From assembly GCF_014200435.1 (NCBI RefSeq), contig NZ_JACHBR010000001.1, forward strand, positions 372,001 to 436,000: a DNA stretch of 64,000 nt, read 5' to 3'. Below are positions 45,925 to 46,748 of the stretch, one piece after another. Position 1 is the first letter of the stretch. Every line of letters starts with the position of its first letter. The notes beneath the pieces are model-generated. The model ran no database searches. It worked only from the letters and a program-made list of their open reading frames with translations, and was not told the origin of the DNA. This DNA is from Sphaerisporangium krabiense. Lineage in GTDB: Bacteria > Actinomycetota > Actinomycetes > Streptosporangiales > Streptosporangiaceae. Made by a program: the position numbers and the translations under genes.

Positions 45925-46283
45925 GGAGGGACCGTATCCGGTCCGCGTTCACATTGCCACCACCCGGCACCTCTTAACGAGCGTGTCGCCACAATTCGGA
46001 CACTTACCTAGCATTTACGGGCCCCTGAAACACCCACGGAACGTCTTTGATCTTGCGCATGGCTGTACCTATGGATGCACGTTCCGTCCCGTTCCCACGA
46101 TGCTCCGAGACGGACGCACTCGGCCCCCGCACGACCGGTTCGGGGCGCGGCGGCGTTCTGGAGCCGTCGGACGGAAGGGTGAGGAACGATCCCTTCCGTC
46201 CGACGGCGGAAGAACGCCGCCTCAAAGGCGCCCCGAACCCGCCGAGCGAAGCGAGGCCATAGGCACTGATCTAGGCTTGCTCT
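45925..46283. other. 359-bp divergent intergenic region containing a nested palindrome
   Basis: No gene is credible here. The two flanking genes each have a TANNNT box 6 nt from the start codon: TACGGT at 45936-45931 on the minus strand and TAGGCT at 46272-46277 on the plus strand. Between them lies a large nested palindrome at 46119-46246, listed separately. Confidence 0.7.
46119..46246. repeat. Nested 128-bp palindrome, possible structured RNA or miniature element
   Basis: Four concentric arms are perfect: CTCGGC/GCCGAG (46119-46124 with 46241-46246), GGTTCGGGGCGC with its complement (46137-46148 with 46228-46239), GGCGGCGTTCT with its complement (46149-46159 with 46211-46221), and a 16-bp arm (46164-46179 with 46191-46206). 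That makes 45 base pairs in total, closed by an 11-nt loop (46180-46190). Interruptions are an asymmetric 12/1 loop, a 6-nt right bulge and a 4/4 internal loop. It lies between divergent genes, so it is not a simple terminator. Confidence 0.85.
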
Positions 46284-46748
46284 GTGAGTCCTGCCTCAGG
46301 CGGCACGCCCCGCCCCAACGGCCCGCGGCGGCGTGACCGGCACGGGCGCGGCATGCGTGGTCCGCTCGCTCCGCGGGAAGTGCCCATCTCGCGAACGCGC
46401 AGCGAGCGTTTCGACGACTTCGTGCTGGACGCGGTCGACCGTCTCAAGCCCAAGTGGGGCGGCCAGCTCTCCACGGTCGAGTTCGCCGTCGAGGAGGTCC
46501 CGCCGTCCGACGAGCTGCTCGACGGGCCCGGCCGGCTCTCCTTGGACCCGATCCCCTTCGGCCGCGCGCAGCCCGCCGCGGGCGGCTCCCCGGCCGTCGT
46601 CGTGGTCTACCGGCGTCCCCTGGAGGCCAGGGCGCGTGACCGCGACACGCTGGGCGCGCTGGTGCACGACGTGGTGGTGGAGCAGGTGGCGAACCTGCTC
46701 GGCCTCTCCCCCGACACCGTGGACCCCGGCTACGACGACCGCCACTGA
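46284..46748 (+). CDS. Metallopeptidase-family (DUF1025-type) protein with degenerate active site
   Basis: The 154-residue protein has a basic N-terminus, then the family pattern RSERFDDFVLDAVDRLKPKWGGQLSTVEFAVEEVP and VVVYRRPLEARARDRDTLGALVHDVVVEQVANLLGL. In catalytic members this last helix carries HExxH; here it reads HDVVVEQVA, so the zinc site is lost. It is therefore probably not an active peptidase. The GTG at 46284 has no ribosome site but TAGGCT lies 6 nt upstream, suggesting a leaderless transcript. It converges on the DUF5719 gene. Confidence 0.82.
   Translation: MSPASGGTPRPNGPRRRDRHGRGMRGPLAPREVPISRTRSERFDDFVLDAVDRLKPKWGGQLSTVEFAVEEVPPSDELLDGPGRLSLDPIPFGRAQPAAGGSPAVVVVYRRPLEARARDRDTLGALVHDVVVEQVANLLGLSPDTVDPGYDDRH

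Follow-up and report, generated by a model that had tools for sequence, protein, structure and literature searches.

The large palindrome that lies between two divergent genes in the window, a 64,000-nucleotide stretch of the Sphaerisporangium krabiense genome, belongs to a repeat of about 130 bases that is scattered in many copies among soil actinomycetes. The copies that we examined are dispersed and modular, close relatives differ in whether a given orthologous site carries one, and none was found inside a called gene. One strand conserves a fold that combines covarying Watson-Crick stems with tandem G·A pairs and GNA-type tips. The explanation that we favor, with somewhat better than even confidence, is a small mobile repeat, non-coding and about 120-140 bases long, that resembles ERIC and REP elements, the pattern of copies pointing to mobility itself.

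Folded as RNA, the window palindrome reaches −95.9 kcal/mol, compared to a mean of −61.2 kcal/mol (sd 4.1) for shuffled sequences (z = −8.4), and none of 200 shuffles is as stable. The nested palindrome described in the original prediction is therefore real and far above chance, although its limits had to be redrawn. Four concentric arms spanning positions 46119 to 46246 had been proposed; the three inner tiers hold, whereas the outermost arm (46119-46124/46241-46246) is specific to this locus. We place it outside of the repeat unit because the 5′ flanks of other copies are unrelated, and because its 3′ side supplies one half of the conserved mini-hairpin at 46241-46257. End-to-end alignment with the other copies of the same genome and with positions 1-135 of model R1 delimits the conserved unit to positions 46137 to about 46268 of the forward strand, which extends it 3′ of the previously proposed end.

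The unit, read on the forward strand throughout, consists of a three-tier hairpin followed by a 3′ mini-hairpin and a tail whose family form is CCATNNNCACNG. RNA folding pairs 46137-46148 with 46228-46239 in a 12-bp outer stem (helix 1) and 46149-46159 with 46211-46221 in an 11-bp inner stem (helix 2), which are paired in 91.8% and 96.1% of the aligned cells, respectively; the sequence of the outer stem varies between copies and its pairing is kept. Beyond a purine 3×3 internal loop with GGA on each side (46160-46162 and 46208-46210), which reads GGA/GGA in 14 of 30 aligned copies and GAG/CGA in another 12, the upper stem pairs 46163-46179 with 46191-46207 over 17 bp. This stem is fully paired in the window copy and in some others, and rich in G·A pairs elsewhere. 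The 3′ arms of the three stems (46191-46207, 46211-46221 and 46228-46239) are assigned by both RNA folding and covariation. The 11-nt terminal loop, TGAGGAACGAT (46180-46190), offers a further closure in which GAGGNACGA can pair as GA-G-(GNA)-C-GA. On the 3′ side, a 6-nt bulge, TCAAAG (46222-46227; 5 or 6 nt in other copies), precedes the outer arm. The mini-hairpin GCCGAGC-GAA-GCGAGGC (46241-46257) contains two G·A pairs and a GNA triloop, and the tail reads CCATAGGCACTG in the window copy (46257-46268).

Covariation supports this fold. Alignment A2 comprises 30 of 41 candidates, aligned by sequence alone after exclusion of 11 non-copies or redundant units. Both sides have changed in 33 of its 48 pairs, compared to 19.1 in shuffles, and its covariation score is 0.282, compared to 0.089 for shuffled alignments and at most 0.056 for slid structures. 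Paired cells amount to 85.1% versus 71.3% in shuffles; the scored structure was taken from one A2 sequence, which favors the percentage paired in the slid control. Unguided, RNAalifold proposed 27 pairs, 18 of which show double changes. Compensatory changes had been put forward as the mark of a structured RNA conserved only at this locus; they were found, but across dispersed copies. Since the A2 candidates were picked by the tip motif GAGG[AGT][AT]CGA, conservation of the tip within A2 is circular and constitutes no evidence. Its independent basis is provided by 12 copies found by BLAST in the own genome and by 120 rows found by the covariance model, itself built from A2. The tip GAGGNACGA is present in 105 of these 120 rows (N being A in 77, G in 18, T in 8 and C in 2). 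A mini-hairpin was recognized in 106 rows, 96 of which have a GNA triloop; the search for the mini-hairpin rewarded G·A pairs, which biases its tally of pairs and leaves the triloop tally unbiased. Among mismatched cells of the upper and mini helices, 129 are G·A or A·G and a single one is C·T or T·C. Because the complementary strand would carry C·T instead of G·A, the fold belongs to one particular strand. G·T also exceeds A·C over the four helices (42 versus 18), with the reverse in the outer stem (5 versus 7).

These data bear on a rather improbable alternative, a passive palindrome spread by replication slippage and recombination, whose arms would be kept complementary by hairpin-templated repair and not by selection. 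Double changes do occur within the same orthologous copy of two genomes that are about 95% identical, and templated correction easily explains such changes. At the window locus, the pair C46172-G46198 is G-C in the orthologous copy of a congener, G008, whose aligned pieces share about 91-98% identity with the own genome (G000), and a G-C pair of the copy at G000:C1:3023628 is T-A in G008. Tandem arrays and internal deletions, which also occur, would suit a passive origin. However, templated correction should erase mismatches, yet the G·A pairs are kept in 129 cells against one C·T, and the tips, apart from a free middle base, are conserved. A passive origin also leaves the dispersal to unrelated sites unexplained.

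This dispersal is extensive. DNA searches revealed 12 copies in the own genome, including the window copy and two tandem units, with units of 121-138 bp; the 128-bp query also gives an antisense self-match there. The covariance model, built from 30 copies, finds 13. Eleven of 60 genomes, the own one included, match in DNA searches, some with short pieces only. Within the genus, copies were detected in seven of 11 genomes (G000, G001, G003, G004, G006, G008 and G010), and DNA searches found none in the other four (G002, G005, G007 and G009). The covariance model matches 44 of 150 sampled genomes of the family and 16 of 394 genomes of the class, four of these 16 being outside of the family; with up to 22 candidates scored per genome for the family and up to 8 for the class, the number of matches per genome is to be read as at least that found. 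Seven copies from the four genomes outside of the family have both the outer and the inner stem in common, as well as the bulge, the mini-hairpin and the tail. Among them, the GAGGNACGA tip occurs only in the two copies from G201, and the five copies from the other genus carry other tips. Plasmid and phage collections returned no match to the repeat.

The scattered copies that, in the original prediction, would indicate a miniature element or REP unit are thus numerous in this genome and its relatives. As for the flanking duplications that would go with them, inspection by eye of the flanks of solitary copies revealed no clear target-site duplication. Together with the outer arms, this observation weighs on the proposal of a miniature inverted-repeat element, which would be moved through its terminal repeats by a cut-and-paste (DDE) transposase. 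The inverted arms at the ends of a large hairpin and the dispersal of copies devoid of genes are what such an element would show. Still, the sequence of the outer arm changes with that of its partner from copy to copy, so that there is no constant terminal repeat, and the unit extends past the hairpin on one side only; we regard this origin as very improbable.

Two further arrangements of copies were observed. At L249 (G010:C9) and L154 (G008:C1:5211259), what comes after the full copy is a series of very short tandem repeats consisting of tail sequence only (GCGCCATCAACACA, for example). In an analysis that took in 100 loci, the genus g23 displayed inverted pairs with their 5′ ends facing each other at six loci, separated by 59-63 nt in four and by 98-127 nt in two (L030, L258, L260, L262, L064 and L065). 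A larger composite element formed by these six pairs was considered and rejected, as the spacers differ between most loci.

Comparison of orthologous sites reveals turnover of the repeat between close relatives. At the window locus, G008 is the sole congener of ten with a full copy, to which an extra 48-bp 3′ module is added. G006 has a fragment of the 3′ part only (model positions 77-133, E = 1.2e-6), in the opposite orientation, and nothing is detectable (E < 1) in the corresponding stretch of the eight others. Two tandem units at G000:C1:3359239 correspond to one in G008, and other sites also differ between G000 and G008 in the presence of a copy; gains and losses are often not separable because the intergenic DNA at these sites differs much between the two genomes. 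As part of our preferred explanation, and with the same modest confidence, the window copy would be a lineage-specific insertion in the spacer between the DUF3499 and zincin genes that need have no role in either gene.

The nine congeners without a full copy carry GCAC[G/A]ATCTAGG at the place where the element ends in ...GGCACTGATCTAGG. Since GCAC is thus native at this place, the last bases of the unit, within the tail at 46257-46268, may be target sequence. Copies at G008:634120 and G008:5545796 look similar to the window locus in this respect and could likewise end in native sequence. The site G000:C2:1275878 was compared with congeners other than G010, of which G002, G004 and G009 gave no orthologous match. 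There, the element is missing from G001, G003, G005 and G007, where CCGCC mostly replaces GGCAC; the copy of G006 is degenerate, and G008 shows the 3′ part only. This site does not clearly show the native-target pattern, and a target at the end of the unit is suggestive only.

Partial copies illustrate the modular organization of the repeat. In about ten copies (for instance L139:4276, L042:1639 and L129:1501), the outer stem, mini-hairpin and tail are kept and the inner and upper hairpins are deleted, which indicates that the outer stem and the 3′ module survive as a short form. Initial counts gave an excess of 5′ over 3′ truncations (24 versus 5, with equal detection power for the two halves) that turned out to be an artifact of local alignment: the 5′ outer arm is still there in 15 of the 24, these being short forms (about ten), diverged copies (three), a copy interrupted by a run of N and one with a long altered middle. 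After correction, nine partial copies begin inside the 3′ half and lack the 5′ outer arm, compared to about three that credibly lack the 3′ side, and there is no clear asymmetry. Reverse transcription and rolling-circle transposition, which the excess had brought to mind, were abandoned once it dissolved on inspection.

We analyzed the placement of 114 copies, counting orthologous or tandem copies singly and dropping six antisense or partial rows of the 120, using genes called by codon-position score, as were those of the neighbor analysis below. Copies avoid called genes (none of the 114 lies inside one) and gather near the 3′ ends of genes, with no bias toward the sense orientation. Between co-directional genes, the folding strand is sense in 37 cases and antisense in 31; 29 copies lie between convergent genes, 13 between divergent genes, and 4 are undetermined. 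The 5′ end of the element has the end of a co-directional gene within 60 nt in 29 of 66 cases, and a divergent start that close in none of 45. For its 3′ end and a distance of 15 nt, the figures are 25 of 61 for convergent gene ends and 6 of 52 for gene starts. The window copy, located between divergent genes, thus represents one of the rarer kinds of placement. At L153 (G008:C1:634120), the tail of the element runs into the start of the next gene, where, judged by eye, a TTG in the tail region may have replaced the ATG start seen in G000. The copies at L242, L064 and L065, which come from two genera, are each located at the 3′ end of a member of one gene family; these genes appear, from reading their sequence, to code for a cobalamin adenosyltransferase, and their common placement would be either a shared insertion or a hot spot.

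The neighbors of the window copy are a divergent DUF3499 gene (PF12005, 45559-45924, reverse strand) and a Zincin_1 metallopeptidase-like gene (PF06262, 46284-46748, forward strand). The element ends 15 nt upstream of the GTG start of the latter, a proximity compatible with the earlier proposal that it serves as a structured or regulatory leader of this gene. We consider such a role highly unlikely. The copy lies upstream of a −10-like box, TAGGCT (46272-46277, forward strand), which is outside of the element, identical in ten of 11 genomes (TAGTCT in G008) and located 6-7 nt before the conserved GTG start; this conserved box suggests that the zincin transcript is leaderless and would not include the element. 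In addition, the gene is there in nine of ten congeners in which no full copy stands at this place, and the family as a whole lacks a sense bias (37 versus 31). Across the genus, the zincin gene is preceded by a conserved stretch, GCAC[G/A]ATCTAGGCTTG, just upstream of the GTG codon (46264-46286 in the window), which looks like a leaderless promoter.

Placement also informs on whether the repeat acts as RNA. A 3′-UTR element involved in stability, 3′-end formation or protein binding, or alternatively a multi-copy small RNA, whose spread would be due to recombination or to an earlier mobilizer, is a reading that we hold to be possible and rather doubtful. Clustering at gene 3′ ends would fit it, and the covariation, the excess of G·T over A·C (42 versus 18) and the G·A pairs on one strand suit RNA and single-stranded DNA alike. 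What sets the two apart is the equal use of both orientations between co-directional genes, together with 5′ flanks that are unrelated and, by eye, share no promoter. The T run that could follow the unit is absent, and Rfam returned no match at gathering score. An intrinsic terminator was rejected for want of a T run in the 3′ flanks and of a sense bias. Because orientation relative to transcription is unbiased and the 5′ flanks share no promoter, we infer that single-stranded DNA is the likelier functional form.

Under the mobile-repeat explanation, the folded strand would be what is recognized during copying or movement of the element. In the simplest case, an enzyme provided in trans would handle this strand as single-stranded DNA, and new copies would tend to end beside CAC. 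Searches for Y1_Tnp, TnpB and RVT_1 reverse transcriptase found none of them consistently present or adjacent to copies. Among the 11 genus genomes, TnpB (C-terminal domain) is matched in 8, Y1 in 7 and RVT_1 in none, the latter being matched in 3 of 14 controls; G010, which has 20 DNA matches to the repeat (partial ones included), has none of the three, which argues that they do not fit. Of 16 copy-bearing actinomycetes searched, 10 have no Y1, and the covariance model found no copy in 38 actinomycete Y1 loci of about 3 kb or less (11 from the genus and 27 further ones) nor in 30 TnpB loci. Y2_Tnp (IS91-like) matched none of the 11 genus genomes, and the controls also gave no match. Clustering of 186 neighbor proteins from 98 loci gave a largest cluster of six members, and reading of the sequences in the 15 largest clusters revealed no recurrent mobility gene. 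A more specific version of the proposal would see, in several actinomycete families, mobile hairpins that travel as one folded strand of DNA. The enzyme responsible would be unrelated to Y1, TnpB or reverse transcriptase and would recognize a structural code of G·A pairs and GNA tips, with insertion beside CAC. We advance it tentatively, with odds clearly against all of its parts being correct.

The original prediction recognized no known family in the palindrome, in agreement with Rfam, where the window stretch and eight loci gave nothing at gathering score; the best sub-threshold matches of the window stretch are eukaryotic microRNA hairpins (MIR9657, 31.9 bits for a cut-off of 53). We found no description of this repeat family in the open-licence literature, and the word “Actinobacteria” is absent from the main text of three papers on palindromic repeats (PMC3733652, PMC6006769 and PMC2817692). 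REP, BIME and REPIN sequences are presented as extragenic and dispersed, with tandem and inverted arrangements and a hairpin in single-stranded form (PMC2817692, PMC6006769), REPs being 20-40 bp long (PMC3733652). The actinomycete repeat shares the extragenic, dispersed location, both types of arrangement and the single-stranded hairpin. It differs by its unit of about 130 nt, compared to a REP palindrome of 20-40 bp, by the lack of a counterpart to the GT[AG]G foot (no common GTAG or GTGG tetranucleotide was noticed by eye 0-2 nt 5′ of the stem), and by the absence from 38 Y1 loci of the arrangement in which copies flank a linked Y1 (RAYT) gene. The suggestion of a mobile unit of the REP/BIME kind therefore survives in part: scattered copies, tandem arrays and the lack of a full copy at the window site in nine of ten congeners agree with it, and its length, the lack of a visible GTAG foot and the absence of copies from the examined surroundings of Y1 transposase genes exclude a canonical REP. 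Tandem-clustered GTAG-tagged hairpins with the same GAGGNACGA tip exist in the Chromatiaceae MAG PL23b_bin.34 (L107 and L115; also L085 and L116). This MAG gave three Y1 matches, and a pattern scan of those loci showed no GTAG-tagged hairpin; the common tip may reflect either shared recognition or convergence.

CGTC repeats, as characterized in PMC3733652, have no associated transposase, stems of 8-9 bp, a CGTC motif and a short tail after the hairpin, mostly CCA, and are found in five other phyla. The actinomycete repeat is likewise palindromic, without associated transposase and with a short tail after the hairpin, but its stems of 12, 11 and 17 bp and its far longer unit set it apart, and no CGTC end was noticed. 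By published definitions, it is neither of GTAG nor of CGTC type. ERIC sequences (also IRU or RU-1) of enterobacteria are described as small non-autonomous mobile sequences of 127 bp (PMC2759123, PMC2229807). Compared by description, the actinomycete repeat is, like ERIC, a long dispersed intergenic palindrome of similar length (about 127 bp), in an unrelated host taxon. We know of no dedicated transposase for ERIC, and a mini-hairpin with tail and G·A/GNA features are, to our knowledge, not ERIC traits. The clear single-strand structure of the actinomycete repeat, with its covariation and non-canonical pairing code, would make the folded strand, along with defined mutants, a concrete bait in the search for the factor that moves palindromes which, like CGTC repeats and ERIC, are transposase orphans. 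By analogy, the repeat would work most like ERIC, as a long palindrome without known enzyme, and is best read as a new ERIC/REP-like small mobile palindrome that is probably handled as folded single-stranded DNA.
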